Positions 4,643 through 38,985 of a stretch of DNA of 64,000 nucleotides are shown here, one piece after another. The notes under the pieces were generated by a model that was given only the letters and a program-made list of their open reading frames with translations, had not been told where the DNA came from and searched no databases. The DNA is taken from assembly GCA_000310025.1 (NCBI GenBank), contig FN649729.1, positions 4,651,915 to 4,715,914 on the forward strand, given 5' to 3'. The translations under genes and the position numbers were made by a program. The stretch is from Ectocarpus siliculosus (lineage: Eukaryota > Sar > Phaeophyceae > Ectocarpales > Ectocarpaceae). How positions within the stretch are numbered: position 1 is the first letter of the stretch; each line of letters opens with the position of its first letter.

Positions 4643-5681
4643 GCTTGTGCGTGCTGTGCGTGATTGGACAACTATATATTATAATACATGGAAGTCTAAG
4701 TATATTCCTCGCGGCATCGTTTCTTGCTCCTGAGCGGGAAGGTCTTCATACATACATCGACACATACATGATCACTCTCGTGCGCCCGGCGTTCAGAAGA
4801 TAACAAGACCCACGCCGTCAGCCGTAACCTCTACCACTAGGTACTAGGTCGACAGAACGGCCCGCGTTTGAGTTGAGAACCGAGGAGTTGAGAAAAATTG
4901 GGCCTAAAAAAAATCAATACTTCGAATCTAAAAAAAATAACCTGAGCAACGAGGACGCAGCAGGCTACCGTGGTCATTGAGGACCATTTTGCGATCTCGG
5001 TTAAGAACCCCGATCGATACTCTAAACCTATATAATATATAGTTGCAAATCGTAGCATGAGCCTAGGATCTACTGTAAGAACCCCCCCCTCGGCAGAAAC
5101 TATGATGGTAGAGGTCGCGTTGTGTGCTGGGACGCTGGGACCTAGAAGCAGCGAACTCGTAAATCGTCCGAATTTATCTAAAGTTTTTGATTTGTTTGTA
5201 GGAGAAAGCCGGCAATCATCATCCAGGCATGTATGTTCTGGGAGCAACAAGGTAGGCTCGTAAGTTCTTCTCACGCTGCCATCCCGCGTACTCACTATTT
5301 TTCCCGGTACAGCAGTACTCAGACAATCAATAGTGTTCGCTTGGTATATGCTGTACACACAGATATACATCGATAGAGGCAGCAGTAGATGCCCTCTTCC
5401 ATGATGTACTTCGTGGCTAGGGTGTATGTTTTGTATGTATGTTGTCGTTGTTGTTGGTTGTTTTCTTGTACGACTACTTTATGTGAGGACAAAAACAGCA
5501 AGCAGCTGTACTAATGAAAGAAGGTAGACTAAGTCTAGTCGTTGAAAACATGACTGACTTTGGAGGGGGAGCAGCAGGAAGGCGAAACAACCAACCAACG
5601 CCCGCAACAAGCTGGTATTGAAAAGAAGACCACAGGCAAGCAGGGCGGGGGGGAATCGTGCCCCACCCCCATCCCCGCGTC

Positions 5682-5825: not shown

Positions 5826-8800
5826 ATGGCCGAACCACAAACTACCCCGGCAGCCGAGGCGGAGACCTTCGCTTTCTCGGCCGACATCAACCAGCTTCTG
5901 TCGCTGATCATCAACACTTTTTACTCCAACAAGGAGGTGAGGTTTGAGCCCGGACCAAACTGGCCGTACACAGAGCTCACCAACCACTTCCAAAGCCTTA
6001 GGGGCCGTGGATAGCAGCGGTGGCGGTTACAGAAATGCAGGAGAGAAGTATCTCTCTGCGAGGAAGTGCTCCCTTGCCTCCCTGCTGGTTGATTTTTGGT
6101 GGCGGCTGAGTGTTTTTCGGCGGCGTGTGGGGGATAGTGAGGTGGGCCGCTTTTTTCGAGATCCTCTTCGCTCTCGTCCAGCGAGAGACTCGAGCAGTAT
6201 CCGCCTCGGGAATTCCGTAAAAGGTCATGGGCCTGCTTGCCTTTTGCGAAAAACAACCAGCGGGAAAGCCTTCCCATTGCAAGCCTGTCAGTCGGCCGCC
6301 GGAATCGAAGATTTTGGTAGCAGGGCGACGGCCTTAGTCCGGATCGGGCAAAAGAGCCAAGCGGGAAACAAAGAAAACCATGAGATGGTCCTGCGTGGAG
6401 TTTCTAGAACAAAGCTGGCAGCAGCGCCGGTGCTCCGCTGGTTGGCGCCGTTACCCCCTCGATTCCAATTCTTTCGCTGGACACGCACGCGTCCGGTTGC
6501 GCCTGCGGGTTGCTGTGCATGCCCCTTGCCGGGCTTCCTGCGGCAAGAGGGTTTATTTGGCGAGAGGTATCCGAGTGTTTGGATGTGCCACCCAACCAAA
6601 AAAGTATCCTTGGTTCCCGGCTGTGCAGAATTTCACCCGCTCTCCGACCGACCTTTCTCTCTCTCGTCTTCTTTTTTGAAACAGATCTTCCTCCGTGAGC
6701 TCATCTCCAACTCCAGCGATGCCCTCGACAAGATTCGATACCAGTCCCTCACGGACAAGGCAGTGTTGGACTCGGAGCCAAGCATGGAGATCCGTGTCAT
6801 CCCCGACAAGGTGTGTGTGTGTGTGTTTTGCAAGGGAAAGAAAGTGGTGTCTTCTTTTTTTATCAATCTTGTTGGCCTGTCAGCTGACAACGAGACGGCG
6901 GCGGCTGAAAAAAAAAAAATGGCGCGTAAATTTCGGTGGCTGGTGTGTGGCGGCTCTCGATTAACCCGCTCCGGTAGTGCAGACACATCATACCCAGCCT
7001 GTGATTGTATCTGCTTTCTGTCCGTGATGTAAGTTCGTCTCTGAGAAGGGACGAGAGTCAATTCAGCCGTGGCCTACTCGGACGGATATGATGGGTTGAT
7101 TGAACGAGTCTCACCCGTCGTGGACCAGACCCTTGGTTTAGAACATTTTTGACGTCATCTACGTAACCAAAACAACAATCGGATGGGTTGCATGTAGTCT
7201 TTCTGTGTGTGTATTTGCTCTCCGTAATCTACAACGGCACAGCGTGTGTCCTGCAGCAGATTGTGTGTACGTGTGTACACGCGGCCTTGCACGATTGCCA
7301 ACCTTACCCGACTTTTCTCAAAATGGATCGGAGTCGGGGTTTGTGATTCTCTCGCTGCCTCCAACCTCGCATGCATACTGCTGCTGTGTCATGTCGCGAT
7401 TTTGAACATCGAAACACCGCCTTGCGTCCACTGCTGTGTACGAATGGCTGTTTGGTGGAGGCGGTCGGTCGCTGCTCGAACCACTGCTGTCGCCGACAAC
7501 CAGTATACGTAAGAAAGTGCCACCCATTGTTTGCAAGGTCATGATCCGGTCCATCTGTACAGCACACACCGGATTACAGCAATTGATTTGTGTATGGCAT
7601 TGCGGTCTAATATTGACCGACTGCTGTGGATACGGTGCACCGCAGGCGAACAACACGTTGACCATCGAGGACTCCGGTATCGGCATGACGAAGGCTGACC
7701 TGGTGAACAACCTCGGTACCATCGCCAAGTCGGGCACCAAGGCCTTCATGGAGGCCCTCAGCGCCGGAGCCGACATCAGGTACCATTGTAGCCTGCAATG
7801 TATGGAATTTTTCTTTGCCCTGGCTATGAGATAATATTGCAATGGTAGCGACAGGAAGGCAACAGCACGACGAGTGTCGATGTGATTCCATGCTTGGCAG
7901 GTGTACCGTTAGCGTGGACACTCTGCGCGGGGCTTCCATAGTTTTTCTTGTTTCTGTTTTAAATTCAGTAACTCAAGCGAAAGCGGGGAGAAACGTGGTG
8001 TCCTCCTGTGTAGCTTGTTCCAATTGTTGGAAGAGTTCCTTCATACCGGCTTGTATTATTATAGTCGCCTCAGCCTTCCACAACCATGCCTTACACCATT
8101 GGTGCCTCTGCTTTTGTAGACACGTTTCTGACACCGTCTTCTGCGTGCACTGGTTGTCGTGCAGCATGATCGGCCAATTCGGAGTTGGTTTCTACTCGGC
8201 CTACCTGGTTGCCGACAAGGTTACGGTCACCTCCAAGAGCAACGACGATGAGCAGCACACTTGGGAGTCCTCCGCGGGCGGCTCGTTCACGGTTACCCAG
8301 GTGCGACCCGTGGACTAAAGACTCGGGCAATGGTGTTTTTGCCATTGACCACTGCTGCTTGGGATCGTTTTTGCCCGATTGGCGACCGCTGTTTGGGGTG
8401 GGATTTTGACGGACGTCGCTCTTACCGATTGACTTTCAAAGCAGATTGCCTTCTAATGTCGCCTCAGAATGTCGTTCGTTCGCTGAGCATGTATGTTGGT
8501 ACTGGTGTCTTTGCTTTTTCACTTCAACCGTGTACCTCTCTTCAAAAGCAACATCCATGAACAGTAATGGCGATGTATGAATCGAATTCCGACAAATTGA
8601 CGTAGGCGTACGTCTGTTATTGTTGCATGTGCCTTACTCATGAAACTCATGCGGTTACTCTATGCAGCAAAAGGGAAAGCGCAGCTGACCGTTGAACAAG
8701 TGTGCAGGTTCGGCTGTCCGTTGCTAGCCCTATGCCTTGTGCAAGAGAACGATATGAAAGTTCACGCTCTCTCAAAATGTACTTGCTTCCGCTTGACACA

Positions 8801-11800
8801 AAATCCCTCCCCATCGTGATGGAATACGCGAAAATCGTCGTATCGTCGCATTCCATCAAGATGATGAAGAATTGCGTGTCAAGCCGAACCTGTGACACCC
8901 TGCTTGCCGTCGTGTCGCGGAATGGAATGTCACCTACGAATACCGTACCCCATCACAACTTGTGACACCCTGCTTGCCGTCATTTCGCGGAATGGAATCT
9001 TGTCGCCGAAAAACGTACCCGTACCGTCTATCAGGACGGGCCGGACGCCAAGCCCGTCGGCCGGGGAACCCGCATCGAGCTGGTCCTGAAGGAGGACATG
9101 GCGGAGTTCCTCGAGGAGAGGAAGGTCAAGGACCTCGTCAAGAAGCACTCGGAGTTCATCGGGTTCCCGATCAAGCTTTACACGGAGAAGACCACCGAGA
9201 AGGAGGTTACCGATGACGAGGACGAGGCGGACGATGAGGACGAGGACAAGGAGCCTAAGGTATGTGGTGTGTAGGTGTTGGGTGTCTTGCGCACCGTCGA
9301 TGAAGGTTTCTGCGTTCGTTGGGATGCTTGTTGATAATTGGTTCTTCTGAGGAATTGTGCGTCTGAAGAGATCCAGAAATACTATTAAGACCCACTCGAG
9401 GTAAGACGGCCTCCGCAGTTGACAGAAAGATGGTCACCGTCGTAAGTTTCGACCTCATTTGTTTGTTCCTTCTTCTGAAATAGTCGATGGAAGAGCGGTC
9501 AGATGGATGGCACCTGATGGGGCACTCTCTCGTGTCCGCCTCTCTTTCTCTTCTTTTTGAGTCCCATGAACCCTTTAGGATTTAGATGTGCGATTGTATA
9601 TATATTTTTTTTTGCTCGAGGTGACGAGAAAGTCTTCTTTCCCCAAACATGACCGACCATGTCTTGAACCCGAAAGAGCCGGCCCCGCCAAGCCAGAGGG
9701 TGTCCGGTTAACTCTGATCGAGCAATGAACAATGACAATTAGCAGTTACTATTCTAGTGAGGAGCATTGTTTTAGCCATGTGTTGAATCATATCAGATGA
9801 CTTGGTGTATGTGGTGCTCTTCCATCGATTGGATGTCCCTCATACAGCCCGTTTGACAACTGTACATTGATGTATTCACGCGATCGATATGCGGCCACTT
9901 GTATTTCATCTTCGGTGTACGAACGTATGACGCTAGCCTGCTGTGCCTAATTACTCTTTTTTTTTGTTCCAGAAATTGAAGCCCTTGGTGTGGCTGCCCG
10001 TGTTTGCCCAAATTTAGTTCCACATCGTTTTAGAATGATCCCACGTTGGTTTTGTGCCACCCATTCTGGCAAGATCAACCCCCCTGCCCACAAATCTCTA
10101 CCTTAGCGTGTATCAGAGGCTTAACAATGGTGTCTCTCTTGTAATGGTGTTCAATACGAATTTCGCTCTGCTCTACAGGTGGAGGACGTGGACGAATCGG
10201 AGGGCAAGGAGAAGAAGACCAAGAAGATCAAGGAGGTGTCCCACGAGTGGGAGCACCTGAACCAGCAGAAGCCCATCTGGATGCGCAAGTCCGAGGAGGT
10301 CACCCACGACGACTACGCGGCGTTCTACAAGTCTCTCAGCAACGACTGGGAGGACCACGCGGCGGTGAAGCACTTCTCCGTCGAGGGGCAGCTCGAGTTC
10401 CGATCTGTCCTCTTCGTGCCCAAGCGCGCGCCGTTCGACATGTTTGAGGGCGGAACCAAGAAGAAGCACAACAACATCAAGCTGTGAGTAGTTGCTGGTT
10501 GTCGTGTGCTCGGCTATGTGGAGCATTTTTGTTGAGGTGTACGCGCTTTGTTGGGAACGGCCGGATGAGTCGGTGTCGACTTTGTACGGTATCGTTTTTT
10601 CCTTAAGGTGGGAAAGCGGCGGAATTCTTTTATTCACCTCGAGATTTGGGAGATTCGATTTCGTGTTGGGAGGAAAGAAGAGAGTTGACGATCGGCTACT
10701 GGTTCGCTGGTATTTCCTGTTCGCTTTGGAAACACATGGTTAATTTGTGCTCGTTGGACAAACATGGCACTGCAGATTTTTTTTGTAGGCCCTGTTGTAC
10801 GCCACTGCACAAGCAGTGGGCAGGGTAAACGCTGATAATGGTCTACCATACTATAATAGCCTTATTTGCCCATCTCCTTGATGGCAGTGTTGTACAAGGT
10901 GCCTAACCGCGGCTATTTGTCCCCTTTTATACCGCAGGTACGTGCGGAGGGTGTTCATCATGGACAACTGCGAGGACCTGATGCCCGAGTACCTGCAGTT
11001 CGTGAAGGGTGTCGTTGACTCGGAGGACCTGCCCCTCAACATCTCCCGCGAGAGCCTCCAGCAGAACAAGATCCTCCGCGTGATCCGAAAGAACCTTGTG
11101 AAGAAGTCGGTCGAGCTCTTCAACGAGCTCGCTGAGGACGCTGATAAGTACAAGAAGGTGTGTTGTCTTGTATGATACATTGGCGTACGTGTGCTCGTTG
11201 ATGGTTGGGTGCGTGTATTGCATCGTTTGTTTGGCCTGAAGATCCTTAACATTGACCGGCCGTACCGGCCGATGATAACATGTTGGGCGGTAACCTCAAC
11301 GATAAAACATGTATCGGGCCATAGACTTTGCTCGTCGAATAGTGCGACAACGTCTTTTTGGGGTGAAAGTCCCATTTTGGCGATTGTCGTTAACAGCAGT
11401 CGGTCGTGCCCGTATTTCGATTTGTTCCTCCCCTAAAGCTTTGCACATTTGGTGTTGGCGTATCGTCTGTGGCTGCTCAATATCCGATTGGTATGTCATA
11501 CGACTCGATCACATGTGTGGACTCTCACGTGCCACTCTTTTTTTTTTTTTTCAGTTCTACGAGGCGTTCGCGAAGAACCTCAAGCTGGGCATCCACGAGG
11601 ACGCCGCCAACCGTGCGAAGCTCGCCAAGCTCCTCCGTTACCACTCCACCAAGAGCGGCGAGGAGATGACCTCCCTCGACGACTACGTCGCAAGGTATAC
11701 ATGTACATGCGCACATTACCAAAGTAGACAACACAAAACCAAGCTTCTCATGAGCGTCGTGCACATGAAGCGGGCAGTGCTATGATTTTGAAATGATGAG

Positions 11801-24423: not shown

Positions 24424-27400
24424 CTACATCACGGCCTGGGCGGAGGCCTTTGTACAAGGGAAAGTAACACCACATACTGCACTCGACCATCGCTTGAGCC
24501 TGGCACCAACTGCATGTGGCAAAGGCGCCCCCACCTCGGAGTTGCTTCCAGGCCATGACGCACAACCCTGGAGAGCCACCTTCCCGGCGAACTGCTCACG
24601 AAGCTGTTCATCGAAGAACTTCTCGTCTGAGAATTCCACAACCTGAAGAGCAACCGCCACAAGGCCTACAGCCGCCGAACGGTCCTGACATAGTTTACAA
24701 AAGTCACTCTCCCCGACCAGGCAGGATCCAGGCCGTGCCTGCCAAAAGAGAGAGCGGACGGGCGCCGTCATCAGTAAGTGCGCAGATTGCAAGTGTGGTG
24801 ATATTCTCGTGCCTGTGAGGCCAAAAAACACTCGCCTACAATCTGAATAAACCAAAGGGGAGAAGGCAAAATATTGATGAGACCTGGAGACAGCTAGTGT
24901 GCTGATTGGCCAGCACAACCGTCAGATGGATTTGTGACGCTAGCTTCGAACGCCACTTTGTTGAGGAAGAACTACTAGGACCATCGAACGAATAAAAAAT
25001 ATTTTGAGCAACAAATTCGGGCGCTTACATCTTTAGTCCTGATCTTCATGCCGTTGGTCTTGTGGAGTGGGCAGAAAAACGTTGTCCTGCAAGGTAAACC
25101 AGGGAACTCCAAGAGCATCTTGATCGTGACGGAGAGGACTTTTGACAAAGCAGCCCACGCGAACACCTCCGTATGCCCCCCGGACACCTCGACCGTCAGG
25201 ATCTTACGCGCCTCAGAGTACTCCAAACTCAGTGAAAACATCCTTTCTTCCGCGCCTTTCCCCACTATCAGAGCTCCGTATCTCCAGAACGGGTATGGGA
25301 GGCCCAAGTGGCAGCACCGCGCCAGGAGACGCTCGACAAAGCCGGGAGGCAACCCTAGACGGAACGAACATTCAACAACAAGCCTCAGGTCGAACTTGTT
25401 AGCTTGGTCTTTTTCCTTGAGCTTGATACCGTAGTCAGGTGGGGGCTTCGTGTCCATGCGCAGAAGGATAACCAAGCCCCCATTGGAGTCGTTCGATAGG
25501 GGAAATGTCAGTCCTGCACTCTTCAAAGCCAGGAGAAGATGCGGTGCGAGCACTGGGCCCCACAGGTCTTCAGCGAGTTGCGGCTCTAAAACATGTTCTT
25601 CGTCCAGCCGGTCCAAGCTGTCAACGTCCATCACCCTAATGCCACCAAGGTCGATTTTCCCGTATGAATCTCGCTTGTGACAAAACAAAGGGTCCAGAAC
25701 TGTGGCGAACCATTCGACGTCGAGGAAGACGTAGCTGCCGTATTCCACCAGTCCCCCCTCCCATTTCCTGCACACAGCAGTGAAGTTGTACGATACAACG
25801 CCGGGCCCGACAACAAATGGGAAGCAGACTTGAGGTGAAGCCTGCACTAACTCTCCGTCCGACATGACGGTCATAACCTATACCACAGCGTAAACATGTA
25901 AATCTTGCGTGACTTTCTGCACCCATGTTTCAAACATACATGAACCTAATTTCTGTTTTCGATCCACAACGCCCACGAATTTGGACAAGTGGCGTTCCAA
26001 AGGGAAAACGTCCAAACAGAGATAAAATTCACCTGATCAAGATTGCACCAGCCATGGCCGCGTCCGGGGCCGCCACCGACGTTCCGGCTCTGTTCATCTC
26101 AGCCACCTTGGCTTGCCACTTTTCCTCCAAAATCGCTCTTGTGATGCCGCGGGTTTGTTGCTCGGTCTTGCTCCTGGAACAACACCGGTGCAATGACGCA
26201 AAATTCTATCCAACCATTCGCGACGAACCATGGAAACAGAACGCGCAACCAATATCAAATCTGTCGAGCCAAGGTGTGTTTCAACGTGAGTGGACACAGC
26301 ACCGCTATCGCTCGATGTGGGAAACACACATTTTACATTGATTACGTCGGTGACGTGTGTATTGACATATTGGACTGCATGGGAAGAATATGTAACACCA
26401 AGTGGCGACATAGACATCGATATCCTCACCTACTGCATGACGCCAGCTCCTCCAGCATCTCAAGGGCGAGTCGATAGCTCTCGGGAAGACGCATGGTAAC
26501 AACCCTCGTGTCATCGGTAGAGTCGTATATGATGCGATGGAAAAGCCCCGGCGTACTCTTGTCGCAGGGCCAGCCTGACCTCCTACCGAATGACGGTGCC
26601 ACGGCGCCTACGCCAGATGCTGCACAGCTCACGAGACTAACGCCGTCTTCCAACGAAATTCCGCGTGGTTGATGTCCGCGCGCAATCTCTATCCAGGACT
26701 CCAGCCATTGGCGGCTCTCATGTTCCACGTCAACCGCTACTGCGGTACGCCTGGTCCTTACCACGCGGTCACACTTGTTTCCCACAAGTATCACACTTGC
26801 GTCCGGCACGCGGAACGTCAAGTGTCGTAGCCATGGAGCAATCGCAAGGTCTTCAAGGTTCAAGCCTTCCATCTCGCTGGCTTTCGCCGCATCCCATACC
26901 AACAGGTACACAGCACGAGGGGTGAGAAACAGCTGGAGCAATCCGTAGTAGACAACCTGTCCAATGGTCCAAGTGGGGTATCACACACAGACACTTGGAA
27001 AGGTGTAAATGGATGGGAACGTGATGTCCAACCAAGTGAACTGGGCTACGGGGTGCAGAACCAAAGGATACTCAACTAGGTTGAACACGGCCAGGGTCAA
27101 ACACCAACGTCGTCATCATCGTCGCGATGATTTTGTACAGGTGTGATCCAACGTAGGTATAGACGGTATCACCCGTCGGCTGCATGTTTCTGACCAACAA
27201 CGAGGAAAACAAAACGAAATCCGCTGACAATTCAGTTGAAACGGAATTGGGTATCATGTAAGCTGACGAAAACGACACTATAAACAAAACAGCCATAATC
27301 CATGCTGTAAACGCAGGAGAGCTCATGCGAAAGCTGGAAACAATGGTTGGATCTTCTGACGACAACATGAAATTATCTCGACCTCCAGCTTGGGTGACTG

Positions 27401-30400
27401 CCACAATAGATTTTCTTGAAAAACACGCTGACCCACAACGGAAGTGTACCGACTGGGTCAACTCAAGCGCGCGACAGAACAAACAACACGTACAAGGAAT
27501 ATAATCCATCTCACCTGACCGGCACAATCAAACATCCGAATCGGGTGACCATCGAGATCGTGGTCTTCGACATCCACGTGAACAGTGCTCTCCTCACCAC
27601 CCCCTCTTGTCATGCACGGCTTCCCGGTCTTGATGCTGCGGCGCAAACTGCGGTAATGCACACGAGCGTAATATACGTGTCGAATTGTCACCACAACGTT
27701 TATGTGAGCATGAACGCCCGCACAGCATCTGATGTCGCCCAAGTTTTCTCCTCGGCACCGAAGAAGTCCGTTAGGCCATTTTTTACGGTTTCTTTTCTTG
27801 GCTATCGTTTTCTTTTCTTAACCCCAAAACAAGACAACTGGTCAAAGCACCCCTTCTGACGATTTTTGCAAAAAAATACCGCAAAGAACAACCCTTTATG
27901 GATGGCCCATCCTGTCTTTTTTTGGGCAACTTTTGGACAGGTTGGGGCTGCAACAACATGTTGGTCCTTTATTGGTCACAACCCCATGACTCTCACGCAC
28001 AAACTTGAATATCTCGACGGTTGATCCCCGCAAACGCTATCGGTGGTCACACGAGCTGTGTCAAGTGGCTGGTACAGAGTCGGTAGCACCGGCGGTTGCC
28101 GTTGTTTTTTCATTCGGCTGGACCAGGTGGACAACCGGATGTGTGCGGCAAACAACAGGCAAACAAGCCGAGAGAGCCTGGACGCAGCAGCGGTGTTGCG
28201 AACCCAACTTCTGGGCGTCCTATCGCCTCCTGGTACCACACAAGACGAACCATACGCACAGTTCGTGGCGGATACCTTTGTCATTGCTGCTGCTTCAGTG
28301 GGTGGCGAGAGATCATTGGTGAACGAAAGTTGCGACACCGGGCAAAAGAGCAAAGGTTGTTGGCGCGGTGGGTCATTTTTCCCGCTCGTCCACGACTCTC
28401 GCGCTCACAAGTTCTGAACGCCCTTCAGCCTCCTGGTCTGTTTTGACCACCGTACAAGACGCACCATACACACAGCTCGTGGCGGATACCAGGGTCATCG
28501 CTGTTGCTTCAGTGGGTGGCGAGGGATCACCGGTTAACCAATGTTGCGACACCGGGCAAAAGACCATAACAAACTGGTTGCTGGCGCGGTGGGCATTTTC
28601 CAGCGTGCTGTTGACTCCCGCCACCTCAGATTCCGTGCTTCCTATTTCCCTATGGTCTCTATCAGCCGTCACACAAGACGGACCATACACACAGCTCGCG
28701 GGGGATGGCTTTACAGTTGCTGCTGCTTCACTCTGTGCGGAGGTATCACCGAAAAACCAAATCGGTGGGGGGGTACATGAACATATGACGCGTACTATTC
28801 CCAACGGCCGTTGCAGAGTCTCGTTCTTTGGTCAATGACTCGGATTAGAAAAAGGATCGACCAGCACCGCAAGAAGCGGGTCATCATTGTTGTTGATCAT
28901 TTTTTGGGTCGTCCTTTCGGTGGGAAAAAAAATCTCAAAAAAATGGTCCTACAACAAATGGCCTTAGGTTTCACTTACATTTTTGCGAAAATTTCAAGCG
29001 GGGTCGCAGAGCAGCGCACAATGTTGACCCACCTTGGGGACACGTGGACTCGTTCTTTCAGGGCTAGATCTTCAACCGGCCGGCGTCCGGTGGTGATCAC
29101 ACCTCTGGCTTTGATTAACCTCGCAAGTATTTTTTCTAACGCCAACTATGCATACGTTGCCCAGAGGCACAAAAAAAAACACGATCTGGCCATTCCACGG
29201 AAAGGGTGCATTGGTTGGAGGACGTTGCCTTGAAGGGCAAGGTTTTAACTGAGCATACACACGCGCAACATTGCCAAAACAACGATTTTTCGTTTCCTCC
29301 CACAGGTCAACAAATAAGACTGTGTTCACAAAACGGGCTGAAAGTCATATCCGCGTACCTGGTCTTTCCAACAGTCTCCTTTCCAACGATGACGACCTTG
29401 AGAGGTCGGGTCACAGCGGTAGTGCCGCCCATGTAGATGGCTTCGAAGTACGCTCTCACCGCCGGAATACCACCCACCACGATCGCGTCGGGAGGACTCT
29501 CCCACGGGTTTTGGGCAACGCTCAACCGGTAAATCCGTTCAAGGCTGTCCAAAAGACAGGCTAATGGCACCGGAAGAGTACCTAGAAAAACGCCAATATG
29601 GAACGCACAACATGTGGTCGGGCGGAGACATACAACGTCATGCTGTCAACGGCCAACATTGTTCATGCGTGCATCCCGCAAGACTCGCCGCTCCGATGTC
29701 CATCAGGTCACCTACCCTCCGTGTCCACAACTACTACAAGTTTCCAGTTGTAGAGATGTAACGCCTCGCCGAAAAATAAAGTCCGGACTTGCTTGGCGCC
29801 GACTGATACCTCCACCATATTTCCAAACTAGGCTGGAAGGGGTTCTTGGTTCGGTCTCTTGAAATCGGGGGACGCGATTGTATCAAACCACGTGGACAAA
29901 TACGCGCGAGAAAATACAGCGAGCTTTTGGCCTAAACAGATCAAACACAGATCGGGTCAGGCCATCTGTATGCAACATGTCAAGTGGAATCCAAAAATGT
30001 GTCCTACATGTGGATGCTTGCTGCACTCGCTGAGCACAAATGCACTGTATTAGTCTTGTCAACAGAGCATTCCCTACGCAACGATTCAACCGGGTTCTGG
30101 CGCAGTCCTTTTTCTCAACCTAGGCTCCCCAATTCCCAACTAAGTATGAGATTGCCATTCAAATCACACGATAGAGGGGGTGCGCACCACCGCCTAATGG
30201 TCACATCCGTTCCCACGACAGTCTACGTATCCCGACAAAGATAAGGGGCTTATTCTCGGTAACGTTCTTTTAGGCGAACACATTCTCGACGGTTATGGCG
30301 TAGGGCGGTAATCGTTTCGGCGCGAGGCGGTATTGAATTTTTTGGCGGTAATGACTTTGGCGGAGGCAGGAAAACCCAAACACGGCGGTAATTTCTTAGC

Positions 30401-33400
30401 GGCGGGCGGACGTTACTTGTTTCGGCGGTAACGTCTTTGGTGGAGGCGGTTCAACCAAAAAGAGGCGGAAAATCGGCGGTATGCCGGTGCCGCCTACCGG
30501 AGCGGTATGTCCCAGCGGCATTGAACGCCATATGACCGTAACATCAAGCGGTACTAAAAACGGCGGCAAACAAGGTGCCAGGTTTCGGCGCCTAAACTAC
30601 CGACAAACTTCGCCACCTGCGCACGTAATTTGAACGTTTGTTTGGCGTTTTCACTAGCTATTCTCATGTTTTTATGTTGAAAACTTCGAGGCAATAACGT
30701 AAAAACACAAAACGAACAAAAATGCAAGGACTCGGAACCCCTGATTCACACTTTGCCCGTGCAGTCGACGAGACGAGGTCTCTGCCCACTCAGCCCATCG
30801 GTCACTCTTCCGTCGGCGGTAACGTACTTGTGTGATCATAATGTACAGTCGGTATTGCAATATGGCGGTAAACATCGGGCGGTATTGGCTTGAGGCGTTG
30901 TTTTGGTGGTGGGCGGTATTGCGTTTTTCGACGAAATCGACTTTGGCGTAAAAAAACAAACTCTGCCGGTAATTGTTTGGCGGTAGGTGGCATTGGTGTT
31001 TTCCGGAAACGACTTTAGCGCAGGTTGTAAAACCAAAACACGACGGCAAACCGGCAGTGTACCGGTACCGCTCACCAGGGTGGTATTCCACGGTGGTAAA
31101 ATTACCGAGGAAACCCTTGAAAAATGTCATCGTCAAGCGACTCATTTATTTCACCTGGCCCCGCTGCCATTGAACCAGTCTCGTCCTGTCCCAGCGCGTG
31201 CCACAGTCCTGCATCGAAACGTTATGTGATCGGTGGATTTCGTGTAATTGACATCCCGTGACACCAGTACCACCTACAGTCTCCACAGGGTTAAATAGAA
31301 AAACCTCCCCGAGTGACCTGAAGGCAAATTTCGGCATCGTTAGGGCAGCTCGGCAACCGCCAACTACTCTCCTCGCATTTCAACAAGCTCAACGGTGAGT
31401 CTCCGTGACAAAAAACTAGTACCCAGTGTGCGCATCACACGAAGGGTGAGCATTCTTGAAGAAAAGCATACGATAAATAATGAATGAATAAAAACAACAC
31501 CAACCCTTTTGACACAACACTCACCGGAAAGCTGGTTGCTGTGAATATCAAGGGTCTCCAGCTTATTCAGAGCTCCAAGTTCCTTCGGGATGTTCCCTGC
31601 AAAAGCAGCAAAACATATACATCAGGCTTGATCGCAATTCAGAAGCAACTACACGGGCGCCATTTTCACGCTGTCGGCAAGCCACTATTCTATTCTAAAA
31701 AGTTTGATGATATGAATGCGATGTTACCATATAATATTTTAATGTTGTGCTTCTTTGGACAAGGCCGATACCCAAGGAGCTGGGAGCCTTGATAGAGCTG
31801 TGGGTCTACAGGCGTCCTGACAGATCATTGATTGATGACTTGCAAATGCTGGTGTTGTGGCATGCCATGGAGTTGCCGCCCTGTATCCCTCCACGCCAGG
31901 TGCTGGCAAGTCAAAAGGTAGGTGTGTCTTTATTATACGCATCGACCGCGCTACCCGGTGACCGATGAAAAGACGTTAGTGCCAGCGGGTAATATCAAGG
32001 TCCCTGGAACCGCCAAATTTCGAAAAATGCACACTGCTCTAAATGCGAATGCCACCATGAATCTCTCCCCATATCCTTTCACAGAGACACACATCAATAG
32101 CTCCACATACATGCCCTCACCCGAATCTAGGAAGCCACTAAAGCACAGGCAGGAGGCCAGCGAAGGGGGCACTTCAAGCCCAACCAGGCCAGGATATCGT
32201 GGTATGCTGCATATCCTCCAAATTTGAAAATCATACACTCCCAAGATCCAGCAGTCATCATGTCAGCAGCTATACTACACAGCAGCAGCAATATAGACGA
32301 GAGACAACATACAGCAGTACGGTAGTAACACATACAGTATCATCATAGCCCCACACATTCCCTCGCCCGAACCTAGAGAGTCACTGATGCAACGGTAGGC
32401 GTGCGCTGGTGTGCTTGCGTGATTGTGGGAAAATCACAGGAGCTGTAGTGAGCCGGCAGAGCTCACATTGGGGAGGGGACAGAGAAGTACAGAAGCAAGA
32501 ACCAGCTATGGGTCTACAAGCCCTCTCACTGATCATTCTCACTGATCATTTCAATGTACTGAAAATAGAGTAGTTTGGGCGGCTTGACGACTGATCTTTT
32601 CGAGGTCTACAAGCCTAACCTGCCCTACCGGCCGCACCGCGACCATGCATCAACCCTTCAATGACCCTGTCTGTGCCCACCGTCCTGTCGCGGGGAGCCG
32701 TCATGGCCTATGGGTGGAGATAGCTGTTGCGTCTACAGAAGTACACTCGTCTCTTTCTGCTGTACTTCTGTCTCTCTCGCGCACTCTCTCCTCCCTTTTT
32801 TTTGTTTGCCGCAAAAAAAAAGAAGAGCTACAGTAGACCCAAAGGGGCTAAGTTGGGCATAAAAAAAAGCAATATCGCACCTTTTTTTTCTCCAACACCT
32901 CTCGCTTCCAGACAACTCACTTCCTTATGGCATGGGTGAGTAAGTCCTCACCTTCTAAAAGAACAGGCAAGACGACCCCTCTTCCGCTATATTCGTTCGC
33001 TACACGGCCCATTCCACTAGAGCACGGTAACCTCGCAGCAGTGGAGGATCCTTCTTGGGTTTCGGCGGACAGCTACGACGCAAGTAGTATTGCATGCGTG
33101 GACCATAAACAGGACTCATCCTGGAACATTACACATTTCCCGCTTAGCTGGTCATGGTGCAAGCCTAAATAGGTACTTCAGTGCTGCGGGATTCCCCAGC
33201 TCCTGCGGGATGGGGCCCGCAAGCAAGTAGCACAAACGATTCTGAGCACGGATTTAGCAGTTTGCTACCCCCCCGCGTTTACAAGATAGAACCCATACTC
33301 ACCCACACGGTTGATGGGACACATGTCCAACAATACCAGGTACCATGCATTTACTGAACATAGCACATTTGGTGCTCTGCCTGCAGGGCCAATTCCCGAG

Positions 33401-36400
33401 GCGCTGGGAGCTCTCCTCACCTTGGAGACACTTGTCAGTCGTCTCATCGGCAAGATGTGGGCACTCTGGGTACCTTTCTGTTTCGTCGCTTGGTCGTGTT
33501 TAGAAAGGTGCTACGTTGGTTTCTAGAAGCCTGCTCGCCAACGCGTACGCGGGATTCATGCATGTTCCCAAAGAATGAAACAATGTGTGTTCCCCAGTAC
33601 TCACCTGAAAGCTGGTTGCTGAACAGAACAAGCTCCTGCAGCGCAGTTAGCTTCCCTAGCTCCTCCGGTATCCTTCCTGTGAGGTGAAGAACCGTATGAT
33701 GAAATACGAATGTAGTGAGGAAAAATAACAGATATCCCGCGAGTTCTGAAATTTCGTACTCACCCACTACGTGGGTGAGTAGGTAGGTGTTTTGGAAAGC
33801 GGAAAGGTTTTTTTTCCCGCTGACATCGTATTTACCCTTCTGCTCGCAGGCCCCATCCCGCCGGAGCTCGGCAACCTCGCAGCACTACAGTACCTCAATT
33901 TTCGGAGCAACCAGCTGACCGGTGAGTCGCCAAGTACAAGTGTTAAATGTTCCGCTTTTCGGGATGAGTCTTGCCAATGCGTGTGCGAGATTCATGCATG
34001 TTCCTAAAGAAGGAAACAATGTGTGTTCCCCAGTGCTCACCTGAAAGCTGGTTGTGGTTCAGAAATAGCTCCTTTAGCGCAGTTAGCTTCCCTAGCTCCT
34101 CCGGTATCTTTCCTGTGTGGTGAAGAACCGTAGGGTGAAACACGAATGAAGTGAGGAAAAATAAAAGATATCGCGTGAGTTCTGAAATTTCGTACTCGCC
34201 TAAGCGTGGGTGAGTACGAATTTTCGCAATTTCGGACGTTTGCTACGAGTTGCGTTTGAGTAGGTGTTTCTAGAAGCCGGGGCATTTAGCTTTGATTCTT
34301 CCCGCTACATTATGGGTACTGTGTTCTCGTTTTTTCTCCTTCGATTGCAGGTCCCATCCCTGTGGAGCTTGGACGGCTCGCCGTACTGGAGTACCTCAGC
34401 CTTGGGGGGAACGAGCTAACTGGTAAGTAATTTATAATTTTGTTCCAGTTTCCAAGATGAATCCCGCCGATGCGTGGGTGAGTATGAAATTTCGCAGTTT
34501 GGGAACTCGCGGGATATCTTTTGCTACGCGTGTGTTCTCGAAAGCCGGGGCATTTAAATTTGTTTTCTCCCGCTACTCCCTCTTCCGGTTGCAGGTTCCA
34601 TCCCGCCGGAGCTTGGAGAGCTCGCCGCGCTGCAGAACCTCGCCCTCTCGGATAACCAGCTAACCGGTGAGTTTGTGCAGCAGTACGTGTTTGAAGCATG
34701 AATCCCGCGCACGCGTAGGCGAGTACGAAATTTCACAATTGCACGTAGCAAAAGATGTCCCGCTGATGATTTGTACTCCCTCTTCCGATTGCAGGTTCCA
34801 TCCCGCCGGAGCTTGGAAACCTCACAGAGCTCAAGCAACTGTGGCTCCAGATCAACGAGCTCACAGGTGAGGTTTTTTTCATTTGTGGCAGAAACTTCAA
34901 TTTATTCTCATGATTCCATGGATGAATCCCGCCCATGCGTGGCTGAGTACGAAATTTCGCAATTTCGGAACTCGCGGGACATCTTTTGCTACGACTTGCG
35001 TTATTGAGTAGGTGTTTCTAGAAGCCGGGGCATTTAGCTTGGATTCTTCCCGCTTCATTGTGGGTACTGTGTTCTCGTTTTTTCTCGATTGCAGGTCCCA
35101 TCCCTGTGGAGCTTGGACGGCTCGCCGTACTGGCGTACCTCGACCTTGGGGCGAACGAGCTAACTGGTAAGTAATTCAGTTCAAAATTTCCAAGATGAAT
35201 CCCGCCGATGCCGTAGGCGAGTACGAAATTTCACAACTACGGAACTCGCTGGATATCTTTTGCTAAGCGTAGTCGGGTCCGATGTTCTAGAACTCGGGGG
35301 ATGTTTTTTTGCTTTACCTCGCTAAATTACCCTTTTGACTCGCTCCTCTACAGGCCACATTCCGCCGCAGCTGGGAGATCTTGGTGCTCTCAAGTCCCTC
35401 AGCCTCTTCAACAACAAATTAGGCGGTGAGTTGAATAGATCGAAAGTATTTTATTCTGTCGGGTTCTGAACATGCATGAATCCCGCGTACGGCGTTGGCA
35501 GGACCGTTTTTCTAGACGCCGGGGGATTAATTTTGTTTTCTCCCGCCAACTTCTTATTGTCCCTTCGTCTGGCAGGCAACATCCCGCCAGAGCTAGGAAA
35601 TCTCCGACAGCTGCAGAAGCTGTGGCTCAGCGACAACCACCTCACAGGTACCTTATTTTGATGGTCGGTTTAATTTTTTTCTAGCATTGATCTATGGATG
35701 AATCTCGCCGATGCCATACACGGGATCCATGCACGGAACAAGTTTGGTAAACATTCAACAACCCCAAAAAAGTTGCAAAAGTTGGTACCTGTCAGCTTGT
35801 TGTTGTCGAGGGCCAGCACCCGCAGCTCGCTGAGAGCTCCCAGCTCCGGCGGGATGCGCCCTGCAAGCCAAAGGGGGGATAGCGGAGATAGTAAGCGGGG
35901 GAAAACACAAAAATCCCCGACTTCTAGAACACCTACTCACCCATGCGTTGGCGTCCACTCACGTGCATCAGCGAGATTCGTACACGGGACTCGCCGCAAA
36001 ATCGGTCGTGGAACAGTCATGAAATCAAATGTTGACTCACCGCTCAGCTGGTTGTTGGAAAGGTAGAGCCTCTTCAGTGCTGAAAGGTGCCCAAGCTCCG
36101 ATGGGATGGGGCCTGCAAGCGGACGGACGGAACGGAGTAGCTCAGCGGGACAAAAGAAAACAACCCCCCGCTTTCTAGAACATTGGTCCCGTACAAAAAT
36201 TTCGTGGACGCCAACGCATACACGGGATTCATGCACGGAACAAGTTTGGTAAACATTCAACAACCCCAAAAAAGTTGCAAAAGTTGGTACCTGTCAGCTT
36301 GTTGTTGTGGAGGGCAAGCACCTGCAGCTCGCTGAGAGCTCCCAGCTCCGGCGGGATGCGCCCTGCAAGCCAAAGGGGGGATAGCGGAGATAGTAAGCGG

Positions 36401-38985
36401 GGGAAAACACAAAAATCCCCCGACTTCTAGAACACCTACTCACCCATGCGTTGGCGTCCTCTTGAAAATCGAGAGGCGGGATAATATTTCTTGTTTTTTT
36501 GTCGCGCTTGATTTGTATCGCCCTCCTGCTCGCAGGCCCCATCCCGCGGGAGCTCGGGAACCTCGCAGCGCTACAATACCTCAGCCTTGCAAAGAACGAG
36601 CTAAGCGGTGAGTTATGGGGCGCAACATGATATTTGCATGATATTTGCAAATTCGGAGGAGACGAAAGAAAAATCCCCGCGCTTTCCGTACAAAAGTTTC
36701 GTGGACGCCAACGCAGTTGGTGGGATTCATCCCGAAACTTGCAAACATCATGCTGTGCTCCTTAACTCACCGCTTAGCCCGTTGCCTTCAAGGTCGAGGC
36801 GTTGCAGCGCTGCGAGGTTCCCTAGCTCCCGCGGGATGGGGCCTGGAAGTGCGATAGAAATCAAGCGGGAAATAAAAAACATTAACACGACTCTCTAACT
36901 TCAAGACGACTGATCCCCGTAGATCTTGTCCTGCCTACGGCGGGATTCATCTTGGAAACTGGAACAAAATTACTTACCAGCTAGCTCGTTCCCCCCAAGG
37001 CTGAGGTGCTCCAGTAGGGCGAGCCGTCCAAGCTCCACAGGGATGGGACCTGCAATCGAAGGAGAAAAAACGAGAACACAGTACCCATAATGTAGCGGGA
37101 AGAATCAAAGCTAAATGCCCCGGCTTCTAGAAACACTTACATAACGCAACTCGTAGCAAAAGATGTCCCGCGAGTTCCGAAATTGCGAAATTTCGTACTC
37201 ACCCACGCGTTGGTGGGATTCAACGTGCAAATGATCACAATACCAAATTGTGCGCCATTACTCACCGCTTAGCACGTTGTTGTCAAGGCCGAGGCGTTGC
37301 AGCGCTGCGAGGTTCCCGAGCTCCGGCGGGATGTGGCCTGTAAGCAGGAGTGCGATACAAATCAAGCGGGGATAAAAAAACAAATAACTCGCCTCTCTAT
37401 TTTGAAGACAACTGATCTCCGTAGATCTTGTCCCGCGTACTGCGTAGGCGGGTACGAAATTTCACAATTGCGGAACTCGCGGGACATCTTTTGCTAAGCG
37501 TAGTCGGGTCCGACGTTCTAGAACTCGGGGGATTTTTTGTGCTTTACCTCGCTAAATTACCCTTTTGACTCGTTCATCCACAGGCTACATTCCGCCGCAG
37601 CTGGGAGATCTTGGTGCTCTCAAGTCCCTCAGCCTCTTCGACAACAAGTTAGGCGGTGAGTTGAACAGATCGAAAAGTGTTTTATTCTTTCGGGTTCTGA
37701 GCATGCATGAATCCCGCGTATATGCGTGGGTGAGTAGGTGGACGTTCTCGAAGGCCGGGAATTGTTTTTTATTTCCCGCTGATTTCGTTTTTGCTTTTCT
37801 GCTTGCAGGCCCCATCCCGCCGGAGCTCGGAAAGCTTGAAGAACCGAGTGGCTCTCCCTTTTCGCCAACCAGCTAAGCGGTGAGTAACAAAAACATAATT
37901 TGGTTCCCCTGATCGTCTTGCACAAACATCACGAGTCCTGCATAGGGCGTTGGCGAGCCTTCTAGAACATTTGCGAAAAAGTGAGCGAGCTACATGGCGG
38001 TACACCTTCTGAGAGCAACAAATTACCGTCTTGTTGCGTGCAGGTTTCATCCCCAAGGTGCTGGGAGCCCTGGGCAAGTCGCAGGCACTTCGGCTCAGCA
38101 GCAACGACCTTACTGGTGAGGATTATGAAAAAAAAAACTTCTACTAGCAGGCATTCGCAAACGCACACGGGATTCACGGAGGGTCACATGTTCTAGAAGA
38201 GGTTTATTCCAGACTCGAAAAAGCCGATCTCTACAAATCTTAGTTCCTGTCCAAGTGTACTGCTGACAATCACCACACAATTCGCGACTCTGTTGCACAC
38301 ACGGTTGCGAACAGCGACAGCGGATGGATGTTAGCGACGAAACCAACCACCAAGCCTACCGGGCCGGTGCGGCACAGGTTCGTGGTCGAGAATTCTCCAG
38401 AGTACGGAAAAAAGCGAATCCGAGCCTTGCACGACAAGCGATACCGAAGGTTCTCTGTGTACCAGAAGCACTTGGAAGCCAGGAAGAGCGATGTGGTATA
38501 CAGGTGGCGTTGTGTTCAAGGAGCAGGCTAGAAGGCGGCGTATAGAGGTGTTGATTAGCTTTGTCGAGTACAGCAGGATCGTGCGCAGCGTGCTGGTACT
38601 GCGGCCGAAACACATATTGTAGTCTACATGGGATTATCCAGGCGTAGGCCGCGTGCAGAACGCTGGCACGTACCACCAAGACAACGTGGTGGCTTCCTGC
38701 AAAACTTGCAATTTGTTGAAAGGGTCGCTTTCGGTCACCGAATTCTTGGCAAAGGTCAAAAGACATCGCAAGAGGGCAAGATGCCCTGTCTGCATGTAGG
38801 CCTTAAATACCTCGGAGGTTGTTGAAAGATAGATCTAGCCGCACGACGCGGCCCTGGTGGTTGACTGTGACACCGAACCATTGCGAGAGATCAGCATCCG
38901 TGCCCCAGTTGATGCTGTTCTGCCAATTAGCTCCCTCGGTCGCGTTATATAGGGCAACCAGTACGTCACGATCGGTCGACGCCAT
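24424..38985 (-). CDS. LRR-Roc-COR GTPase of the ROCO family
   Basis: Candidate receptor/signalling GTPase. In gene order: N-terminal exon 38985-38811 (MASTDRDVLVALYNATEG; W-W-GV cap and first LRR half); nine 72-bp LRR exons 37337-37266, 37049-36978, 36842-36771, 36362-36291, 36112-36041, 35860-35789, 34112-34041, 33676-33605, 31596-31525; Roc exons 29560-29359 (P-loop GKETVGKT), 27647-27515 (DCAGQ) and 26956-26430 (VYLLVWDAA, VGNKCDRV); COR exons 26173-26033 and 25767-25029 (GGLVEYGSYVFLDVEWF); and 24738-24424. All LRR exons are phase 1-1 with the pattern GxIPxELGxL..L..L.L..N.L. Every junction agrees in phase, giving 959 aa to TAG. No kinase domain is seen. LRRs probably bind ligand and Roc-COR signals by GTP-driven conformational change (family knowledge). 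The TAG may be a premature stop. The introns hold opposite-strand LRR cassettes. Confidence 0.85.
28232..28770 (+). repeat. Three tandem units of about 215 bp in the ROCO Roc intron
   Basis: ACAAGACG-ACCATAC-CACAG recurs at about 28240, 28454 and 28673, each followed by CGGGGGAT/GTGGCGGATAC and a GTCATTGCTGCTGCTTCA-like stretch. The first two units also share TTGCGACACCGGGCAAAAG. The array lies in the 1.7-kb intron between the P-loop exon and the DCAGQ exon. Both strands stay largely open, but I cannot assign a protein. Confidence 0.65.
30289..30560 (+). repeat. GGCGGTAAT-rich degenerate repeat block, copy 1
   Basis: GGCGGTAAT, GGCGGTATT and GGCGGTAAC recur every 30-60 bp, with AAAACCCAAACACGGCGG inside. 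The block lies in the ROCO intron between the last LRR exon and the first Roc exon. It is related to the block at 30806-31110. Non-coding. Confidence 0.6.
30806..31110 (+). repeat. GGCGGTAAT-rich degenerate repeat block, copy 2
   Basis: Diverged copy of the block at 30289-30560. GGCGGTAA/GGCGGTATT motifs and a matching stretch AAAACCAAAACACGACGG recur in the same order. Its right end holds CCGGTACCGCTCACCAGGG-like sequence comparable to the end of copy 1. Confidence 0.6.
31334..31394 (+). pseudogene. Decayed LRR cassette (3' half, + strand)
   Basis: The frame reads LGQLGNRQLLSSHFNKLN and runs to an intact GTGAGT donor at 31395. The acceptor and the GxIP start are lost. Orientation is opposite to the ROCO gene. 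Confidence 0.45.
31758..31815 (+). pseudogene. Decayed LRR cassette (5' half, + strand)
   Basis: A frame with RPIPKELGALIELWVY matches the start of an LRR unit but then degenerates, with no N-x-L end or donor. Similar GTGGGTCTACA fragments recur near 32513, so this segment itself was duplicated. Confidence 0.4.
33012..33060 (+). pseudogene. Decayed LRR cassette (+ strand)
   Basis: A frame reading RPIPLEHGNLAAVEDP corresponds to the first half of a GPIPxELGNLAAL unit. The acceptor AG is missing and the second half is unrecognisable. Confidence 0.4.
33170..33227 (-). pseudogene. Decayed LRR cassette (- strand)
   Basis: On the minus strand GPIPQELGNPAALKYL is readable. The acceptor has become GCG instead of CAG and the end of the unit is lost, so it should not be spliced into the ROCO mRNA. 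Confidence 0.45.
33387..33450 (+). pseudogene. Decayed LRR cassette with intact acceptor (+ strand)
   Basis: After CTGCCTGCAG the frame reads GPIPEALGALLTLETL in the usual phase, then loses the N-x-L consensus and the donor. Confidence 0.5.
33850..33921 (+). pseudogene. Opposite-strand LRR cassette P1 (72 bp, intact)
   Basis: Acceptor CTCGCAG, donor GTGAGT, phase 1-1. It begins GPIPPELGNLAALQYL. It lies on the + strand between ROCO exons at 33605-33676 and 34041-34112, so it is antisense to that gene and cannot enter its mRNA unless inverted. Confidence 0.8.
34351..34422 (+). pseudogene. Opposite-strand LRR cassette P2 (72 bp, intact)
   Basis: Acceptor GATTGCAG, donor GTAAGT, phase 1-1. It begins GPIPVELGRLAVLEYL. 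P5 is a near copy, and the ROCO sense exon at 36978-37049 is an inverted near copy with matching intron flanks. Confidence 0.8.
34595..34666 (+). pseudogene. Opposite-strand LRR cassette P3 (72 bp, intact)
   Basis: Acceptor GGTTGCAG, donor GTGAGT, phase 1-1. It begins GSIPPELGELAALQNL. An ATGAATCCCGC motif follows about 30 bp after the donor. Confidence 0.8.
34795..34866 (+). pseudogene. Opposite-strand LRR cassette P4 (72 bp, intact)
   Basis: Acceptor GATTGCAG, donor GTGAGG, phase 1-1. It begins GSIPPELGNLTELKQL. Its upstream flank resembles that of P3. Confidence 0.8.
35095..35166 (+). pseudogene. Opposite-strand LRR cassette P5 (72 bp, intact)
   Basis: Acceptor GATTGCAG, donor GTAAGT, phase 1-1. 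It begins GPIPVELGRLAVLAYL. Exon and flanks closely match P2. Confidence 0.8.
35354..35425 (+). pseudogene. Opposite-strand LRR cassette P6 (72 bp, intact)
   Basis: Acceptor CTACAG, donor GTGAGT, phase 1-1. It begins GHIPPQLGDLGALKSL. It is a near copy of P9: three differences in the exon, and similar introns on both sides. Confidence 0.8.
35576..35647 (+). pseudogene. Opposite-strand LRR cassette P7 (72 bp, intact)
   Basis: Acceptor CTGGCAG, donor GTACCT, phase 1-1. It begins GNIPPELGNLRQLQKL. It lies tail to tail with the ROCO sense exon at 35789-35860. Confidence 0.8.
35717..35956 (-). repeat. 240-bp LRR exon-intron unit, copy A
   Basis: This segment contains the ROCO sense exon 35789-35860 plus flanks and is repeated at 36219-36458 with an offset of 502 bp. 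The flanks differ by one substitution and one indel; the exon differs by three substitutions, two of them amino-acid changing. Confidence 0.85.
36219..36458 (-). repeat. 240-bp LRR exon-intron unit, copy B
   Basis: Direct copy of 35717-35956, containing ROCO sense exon 36291-36362. The two copies encode units starting GRIPPELGALSEL and differ at R/Q and D/H in the variable LRR positions. Confidence 0.85.
36536..36607 (+). pseudogene. Opposite-strand LRR cassette P8 (72 bp, intact)
   Basis: Acceptor CTCGCAG, donor GTGAGT, phase 1-1. It begins GPIPRELGNLAALQYL. It lies between two groups of three ROCO sense exons. Confidence 0.8.
37584..37655 (+). pseudogene. Opposite-strand LRR cassette P9 (72 bp, intact)
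   Basis: Acceptor CCACAG, donor GTGAGT, phase 1-1. It begins GYIPPQLGDLGALKSL. Near copy of P6, 2.2 kb away in the same orientation. Confidence 0.8.
37809..37879 (+). pseudogene. Opposite-strand LRR cassette P10 with 1-bp deletion (71 bp)
   Basis: Acceptor GCTTGCAG and donor GTGAGT are intact. It begins GPIPPELGKLEE, but the exon is 71 bp. One base is missing in the middle, which shifts the frame and brings up a TAA. It is broken unless the deletion is an assembly error. Confidence 0.75.
38044..38115 (+). pseudogene. Opposite-strand LRR cassette P11 (72 bp, divergent)
   Basis: Acceptor GTGCAG, donor GTGAGG, phase 1-1. It begins GFIPKVLGALGKSQAL: the usual ELG is VLG and some core leucines are replaced, so it is drifting. 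Confidence 0.7.

Follow-up and report, generated by a model that had tools for sequence, protein, structure and literature searches.

In the window, by which we mean the whole 64-kb stretch of Ectocarpus siliculosus DNA that was analysed, an array of LRR exons lies within a minus-strand ROCO gene. In the manner of brown algal ROCO genes, this host gene combines LRRs and a Roc GTPase domain in one gene and encodes one LRR per 72-nt symmetric exon. The assembled protein of 809 amino acids, for which some exon limits were set by eye, matched the Pfam families LRR_1, LRR_8 and Roc, the last with 47 bits (cut-off 27). Pfam at 1e-3 revealed no COR match in this protein; the same COR-region exon follows Roc in P0001, the orthologue in Ectocarpus sp. 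6, with 97.9% identity. The best public protein match of the host gene also came from Ectocarpus sp. 6. A search of Rfam over 31-39.5 kb of the window found nothing, and many GGCGGTA-like short repeats were seen by eye in the stretch that separates the LRR array from the Roc exons (30250-31080). The exons of the host gene outside the array are as follows.

38809..38985, minus strand: N-terminal cap exon of the ROCO gene (59-aa query, 100% self match)
29307..29645, minus strand: reading frame with the Roc P-loop exon (exon limits by eye)
27458..27817, minus strand: reading frame with the Roc DxAGQ exon (exon limits by eye)
26426..26980, minus strand: reading frame with the C-terminal Roc exon
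25068..25796, minus strand: COR-region exon (genome-wide search with this exon)

We scanned the 64 kb for 72-nt stretches between AG and GT whose phase-1 translation fits GxIPxxLGxLxxLxxLxLxxNxLT. The results revealed 9 intact LRR exons on the minus (sense) strand and 10 on the plus (antisense) strand with scores of 10-12 of 12, while elsewhere in the window no score exceeded 4. An earlier note on this DNA had counted nine minus-strand exons of 72 nt in the ROCO gene, all of which proved intact in the mechanical scan, and eleven plus-strand exons, ten of them intact; the scan recovered these ten, and the eleventh (37809-37879) is 71 nt long and carries a stop. The block order given there (- + - 6+ 3- 1+ 3- 3+) was reproduced as well.

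37266..37337, minus strand: sense LRR cassette, 72 nt (scan)
36978..37049, minus strand: sense LRR cassette, 72 nt (scan)
36771..36842, minus strand: sense LRR cassette, 72 nt (scan)
36291..36362, minus strand: sense LRR cassette, 72 nt (scan)
36041..36112, minus strand: sense LRR cassette, 72 nt (scan)
35789..35860, minus strand: sense LRR cassette, 72 nt (scan)
34041..34112, minus strand: sense LRR cassette, 72 nt (scan)
33605..33676, minus strand: sense LRR cassette, 72 nt (scan)
31525..31596, minus strand: Roc-proximal sense LRR cassette, outside the stretch with detected joints; the sole LRR closely kept in P0001 (21/24)
33850..33921, plus strand: antisense LRR cassette, intact (scan)
34351..34422, plus strand: antisense LRR cassette, intact; letter-identical to sense cassettes of arrays C477b and C4a
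34595..34666, plus strand: antisense LRR cassette, intact (scan)
34795..34866, plus strand: antisense LRR cassette, intact; sense copy in array C11 (2 mismatches)
35095..35166, plus strand: antisense LRR cassette, intact (scan)
35354..35425, plus strand: antisense LRR cassette, intact (scan)
35576..35647, plus strand: antisense LRR cassette, intact; sense copies in array C16 and other arrays
36536..36607, plus strand: antisense LRR cassette, intact; sense copy in array C4a (4 mismatches)
37584..37655, plus strand: antisense LRR cassette, intact (scan)
37809..37879, plus strand: antisense LRR cassette, broken (71 nt, stop; profile)
38044..38115, plus strand: antisense LRR cassette, intact (scan)
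33140..33217, minus strand: degenerate sense LRR relic
31334-31396, plus strand: partial LRR relic (by eye)
31761-31803, plus strand: partial LRR relic
33383-33453, plus strand: partial LRR relic

To place this locus among others, we searched the genome (189 Mb in 492 contigs) with the pattern AGGNNNNATHCCNNNNGARYTNGG, which gave 304 matches against 1 for the backward control. At least 294 of these matches were located; they fell into about 20 clusters with both strands and others that were one-stranded. Twenty arrays on 14 contigs, namely the window and 19 more, were picked for pattern matches on both strands, and because they were selected as mixed, mixedness alone is no evidence. Two mixed clusters (C16:2108k and C9:5270k) were left out, and those on C5, C8 and C80 were taken partly. 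A profile made from the window exons identified 283 cassettes in the 20 arrays and 276 in the 19 of known sense, the sense of an array being the strand of its nearest N-cap or COR match; array C15c was dropped wherever sense was needed. After removal of two N-masked cassettes, 153 cassettes of the 19 arrays were sense and 121 were antisense, a split with p=0.06 when tested against one half. Neighbouring cassettes are oriented as if shuffled at random: 125 adjacent pairs were head-to-tail, 70 head-to-head and 65 tail-to-tail, and within-array shuffles predicted 127+-8 same-strand neighbours. Thus the earlier note was right that the opposite-strand exons are real, mostly intact cassettes, and they have sense counterparts elsewhere, but the idea that this locus is peculiar found no support, as there are 19 further mixed arrays.

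Nearly uniform ROCO loci exist beside the mixed ones. Six LRR loci picked as uniform, with an N-cap near all six and a COR match near 5/6, contained 35 cassettes, 2 of them antisense, and in each of 12 short control loci the cassette matches were one-stranded. At C19:2042860-2043097, two LRR cassette matches lie on the strand opposite to Roc (C19:2044674) and COR (C19:2045840), 1.6-3 kb off; this is perhaps another array with antisense cassettes. In one array, L039 (C4:2033001-2039500), two cassette copies of 286 nt lie inverted to each other with 99% identity (3008-3293 and 4942-5227), so its primary transcript could form long double-stranded RNA.

Repeats assemble poorly, and an assembly artefact could in principle have produced the alternating blocks. 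This explanation is extremely improbable, for 14 contigs carry arrays of this pattern, 20 in all, whose joints are exact and whose exons are mostly open.

The condition of the antisense cassettes was then compared with that of the sense ones. In the 19 arrays, 30/121 antisense cassettes were broken against 7/153 sense cassettes (stratified permutation, 5e-5). Among cassettes of at least 40 bits the figures were 10/90 and 5/136 (p=0.05), and at 45 bits or more 5/78 and 4/120 (p=0.32), score and intactness not being independent in either comparison; the excess of antisense breakage is concentrated in low-scoring relics. The earlier note had proposed dN/dS of plus versus minus cassettes as a check, and this comparison did not separate the two sets (sense 0.98, 0.80-1.29; antisense 1.26, 0.94-1.89). 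We infer that sense cassettes are under some selection, and that antisense cassettes decay but were recently sense or are often copied. The ten intact plus-strand exons with their splice sites might also be taken for a functional plus-strand gene or antisense transcript. We regard this as very improbable: antisense cassettes are the more often broken in the 19 arrays, neighbour orientation is random, and genome-wide searches with the N-cap and COR exons of the host found no plus-strand match in the 64-kb window; the earlier note had likewise seen no N-terminal cap exon, and no Roc exon, on the plus strand.

When the introns between cassettes were read side by side, they turned out to be mosaics of modules that meet at a pseudo-palindrome of approximately TCCCGCCNA-Y(GC|TA)R-TNGGCGGGA. 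This pseudo-palindrome has A-Y(GC or TA)R-T in its middle, flanked by CC-N on one side and N-GG on the other. When the 111 introns of seven arrays were examined for CCNA-YNNR-TNGG, the central dinucleotide was GC in 60 cases, TA in 10 and another dinucleotide in 2, while shuffled sequences gave 13 in all, over 16 dinucleotides. The cores of the joints in the window are listed below, without strand.

33542..33545: joint core CGCG
33767..33771: joint core CTACG (TA end with GC end), in the inverted repeat TACTCACCCA-CTACG-TGGGTGAGTA
34471..34474: joint core TGCG
34712..34715: joint core CGCG
35209..35213: joint core TGCCG
35490..35494: joint core CGGCG
35712..35716: joint core TGCCA
35944..35947: joint core TGCG
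36215..36218: joint core CGCA
36447..36450: joint core TGCG
36712..36716: joint core CGCAG (GC end with TA end)
37206..37209: joint core CGCG
37440..37444: joint core CTGCG (TA end with GC end)

A catalogue of the 20 arrays, which admits the observed end types, contains 131 joints with four-nt cores (3.3 per shuffle) and 40 with five-nt cores (2.5 per shuffle); 12 of these 171 joints have non-standard halves and were excluded from later counts. The arrays, 94.8 kb in total, hold the remaining 159, compared with 1 in the controls, which comprise 77.2 kb from 22 uniform LRR, Roc and NB-ARC loci, some of them overlapping. None of the 159 falls inside an exon, and the same rule found no joint in the window outside the array. 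The six uniform LRR loci held 6 joints in 26.2 kb. A strict joint was present in 141 of 256 introns shorter than 450 nt and absent from 115, at similar rates in head-to-head (39/69), head-to-tail (68/123) and tail-to-tail (34/64) introns; several joint-less introns of the window show a near-miss by eye. Some mixed arrays are poor in joints (C9, 6 joints for 33 cassettes; C8, 2 for 10; C1, 1 for 6; C12, 0 for 7), which suggests that joints decay or that further processes flip cassettes too. Genome-wide, 20 of 29 strict sites with a GC or TA centre lay in LRR cassette clusters, 19 mixed (judged by eye among the 50 of 99 sites listed), and the backward control of the pattern gave 6 sites. The joint motif, which is absent from the earlier note, is the stronger evidence for rearrangement.

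A dispersed repeat with CGCCAATGAGTGGGCG accounts for 18 of the 50 listed strict-pattern sites (for example C3:4088538, C4:5054952 and C5:1271109); it is joint-like, but has a GA/TC centre and lies outside arrays. The idea that NB-ARC-TPR genes share the joint was rejected, since two NB-ARC loci (15 kb) contained 0 joints. One of them, L057 (C21:3231001-3240500), was examined for repeats: at 1891-2291 and 7953-8894 it carries 126-nt units head to tail, spaced by 126, 252 or 255 nt, and no inverted copies of 60 nt or more were found in it. This spacing indicates that there is mostly no intron between units, unlike in the ROCO arrays with one exon per LRR.

The joints obey a rule of core length. 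Where the two ends have like central dinucleotides, the core is 4 nt long in 119/125 joints, and where a GC end meets a TA end, it is 5 nt long in 30/34 (Fisher, 3e-22). Joint counts are partly non-independent through duplication, and the rule holds in de-duplicated counts, with identical contexts collapsed (8e-19) and with each pair of end types counted once (86/6 against 4/26, p=8e-17). In the longer core, the additional base continues the palindrome of one end in 36/36 cases, where half would be expected by chance; at GC-TA joints it is C in 16 and T in 14. Such mixed joints are rarer than under random pairing (34 observed, 55.7 expected). End types combine widely, though not quite freely: the 159 joints show 111 distinct pairings where random pairing gives 121+-3, and the most frequent ones were found with as many as 16 different partners. 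The proportions of the cores CGCG, CGCA and TGCA (49, 43 and 8) fit independent halves but equally CpG decay, and were therefore not used as evidence. The rule may be read as the trace of short palindromic overhangs, of which alike ones would pair and unlike ones would be joined with one mismatched position and then repaired. A stagger of 2 nt or of 4 nt, made by a nuclease or by a recombinase, would fit in every combination. On the whole, the joints look like the result of staggered cutting and end joining of exon cassettes.

To follow cassettes between loci, we compared all arrays against each other, which yielded 1204 rows of at least 70 nt and at least 88% identity with reciprocal matches counted. 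Of the homology ends, 44-45% were no more than 12 nt from a joint, compared with 6.5-7% at random places, and about 55% were not near any detected joint; only 5.6-5.8% of the ends fell inside exons, where 25% would do so at random. Matches in the same and in the opposite orientation were about equally frequent, both within arrays (70:66) and between them (528:540). Both ends lay at joints in 235 matches, 212 of which were 200-299 nt long, the length of one cassette. Between arrays, the highest identity was 100% over 252 nt and the longest match 1250 nt at 92%, all others being shorter than 750 nt. Among 40 cassette families with several members, 27 include both sense and antisense copies and 35 occur in more than one array. 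Cassettes that lie backward here stand forward elsewhere; 34351-34422, for instance, has letter-identical sense counterparts in arrays C477b and C4a.

Ordinary birth and death might account for such arrays: cassettes with similar introns would be duplicated, inverted and moved by unequal crossing over, non-allelic homologous recombination and gene conversion, and the antisense ones would be relics in the course of being lost. The shared intron sequence could drive homologous exchange, the inverted repeats of the window are strong (one of 174 nt at 98%), several mixed arrays have few detected joints, and the more frequent breakage of antisense cassettes is what relics would show. However, homologous exchange predicts neither breakpoints at one short core, nor unlike modules combined at that core, nor a core length tied to the central dinucleotides of both ends. 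We consider birth and death a rather unlikely explanation.

A 52-nt intron module with joint-type ends is present in at least 42 copies on both strands. Since inverted half-sites end both this module and the cassettes, beside a short common core that resembles a target duplication, and since copies are common to several arrays, the LRR exons could have been captured by a small transposon family, in MITE-like units with short terminal inverted repeats that insert into their own target core. The inverted ends and the short repeated target core are indeed those of MITE-like elements, but dispersal over the genome was not seen: of the 42 listed module copies, 41 are situated in mixed arrays and the remaining one no more than 0.4 kb from such an array, and the strict GC/TA sites are likewise confined mostly to LRR clusters (20/29, with about half of the 99 sites listed). 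No transposon insertion known to us obeys the core rule where unlike ends meet, and we give this origin little chance.

The evidence for rearrangement is a comparison of sequences within one assembly, and the explanation that we favour as probable is that exchangeable LRR cassettes have been cut with a stagger at the joints and re-joined by end joining in either orientation. The LRR region of a ROCO gene would then be an array of such cassettes of about 235 nt each, every one comprising one 72-nt symmetric LRR exon flanked by intron sequence with a median length of 92 nt upstream and 70 nt downstream. Both ends of a cassette would carry an inverted half-site (typically T-N-GG-C/T-G...) beside the symmetric core A-Y(GC or TA)R-T. 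At the joint, an enzyme of dimer type (a nuclease, transposase or recombinase) would make a staggered cut over the palindromic centre, and the free ends would be re-joined, ends with the same centre pairing to leave a 4-nt core and GC and TA ends pairing badly to leave a 5-nt core. Because the centre is symmetric, a cassette could re-enter either way round, be lost or go to another array. The gene would tolerate this shuffling because antisense cassettes are only intron to it and every intact sense cassette keeps the frame. The joint also offers a reason why a receptor gene with nearly equal numbers of backward and forward exons is still readable. We infer the class of enzyme, the overhang and end joining as the agent. 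Joining may simply be blind to orientation and yield antisense cassettes as a by-product, not as a maintained store.

A stronger version, in which a site-directed end-joining system continually cuts, flips and exchanges LRR cassettes among ROCO genes, perhaps somatically, with the antisense cassettes as a live store, seems unlikely to us; if true, it would represent an independently evolved receptor-diversifying machinery in brown algae. Programmed excision of the Paramecium type depends on a domesticated piggyBac transposase that acts in development. The genome contains 29 matches to the piggyBac-type transposase domain PF13843, and nothing ties these to the joint or to the arrays. Several of them are near-identical in score, perhaps pointing to a young transposon family, and the contig that holds array C234 also carries one set (C234:22524-24393).

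The orthologue P0001 provided a comparison between species, which is indirect because P0001 is a gene model, and its eight LRRs were delimited by eye. Its identity to the host gene is 98.3% for Roc, 97.9% for the COR region and 86% for the N-cap, which makes it the same gene or a copy of very recent origin. Only the Roc-proximal one of the eight LRRs is close to a window cassette (31525-31596, 21/24); the others reach at most 19/24 against window cassettes on either strand, and two of them match other arrays of the genome at 22/24 and 23/24. By this comparison of orthologue and host gene, the LRRs have turned over against a conserved Roc-COR region.

LRR exon shuffling in brown algal ROCO genes was reportedly described by Zambounis in 2012. 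The proposal, with somatic recombination as a possible basis, has stood since that year and is cited by Teng 2024 (PMC11378527). In this paper, brown algal ROCO LRR exons are 72 nt long, encode one LRR each in a uniform phase and turn over rapidly, LRR-only sequences are suggested as a reservoir for shuffling, and recombinant ROCO loci and site-specific recombinases are said not to have been reported so far. The present exons agree in size and in having one LRR each; their phase is there named phase 2. A term search of its main text found nothing on exon orientation, and random orientation, the palindromic joint and the core rule, all present in our arrays, are absent from its abstract and two of its sections. 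In the openly accessible literature on exon shuffling, palindromes, inversions and somatic recombination, we found no title announcing antisense exons or a joint motif. The 72-nt exons and the proposed shuffling were already known; with respect to these sources, the palindromic joint, the core rule and the random orientation of cassettes are new. Such a well-defined joint, with its strict rule of core length, would be the missing signal for ROCO exon shuffling. From it follow the predicted positions of new breakpoints, primers with which to detect circles and inversions, and a piece of DNA with which to fish for the enzyme. The long-standing proposal of exon shuffling in algal immune receptors can thereby be tested directly.

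Several known systems resemble parts of this scheme. In the bacterial shufflon, several segments are flipped or deleted at inverted repeats by a conservative tyrosine recombinase. Flipping and deletion of segments at inverted repeats would be common to both, but in the arrays the length of the core differs with the ends, which points to end joining. V(D)J recombination, which works through heptamer/nonamer signals and RAG proteins, leaves short palindromic (P-like) bases at joints and uses segments by inversion or deletion, whereas in the arrays the half-site stays with the joined exon unit. Lamprey VLRs are assembled by templated copying into an incomplete gene, with a cytidine deaminase as the agent. 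In this system, as far as the consulted part of its description goes (PMC3308329), the LRR content of a receptor is likewise drawn from many cassettes, but those that serve as donors lie on either side of the incomplete gene and are copied rather than rearranged, while those of the ROCO arrays are intron-and-exon units inside the gene with site-like ends. The nearest described chemistry known to us is the joining that follows IES excision by PiggyMac in Paramecium, for which the sections consulted (PMC3077386) describe 4-base 5' overhangs centred on a palindromic TA, of which the centre pairs while a mismatched outer base is trimmed and filled before Ligase IV joins the ends. The arrays have GC or TA centres, longer pseudo-palindromes and exon units instead of eliminated sequence, yet in them, too, a 4-nt core requires matching centres, whereas its outer bases are variable, and as far as their letters tell, a palindromic central dinucleotide would guide the joining in both.
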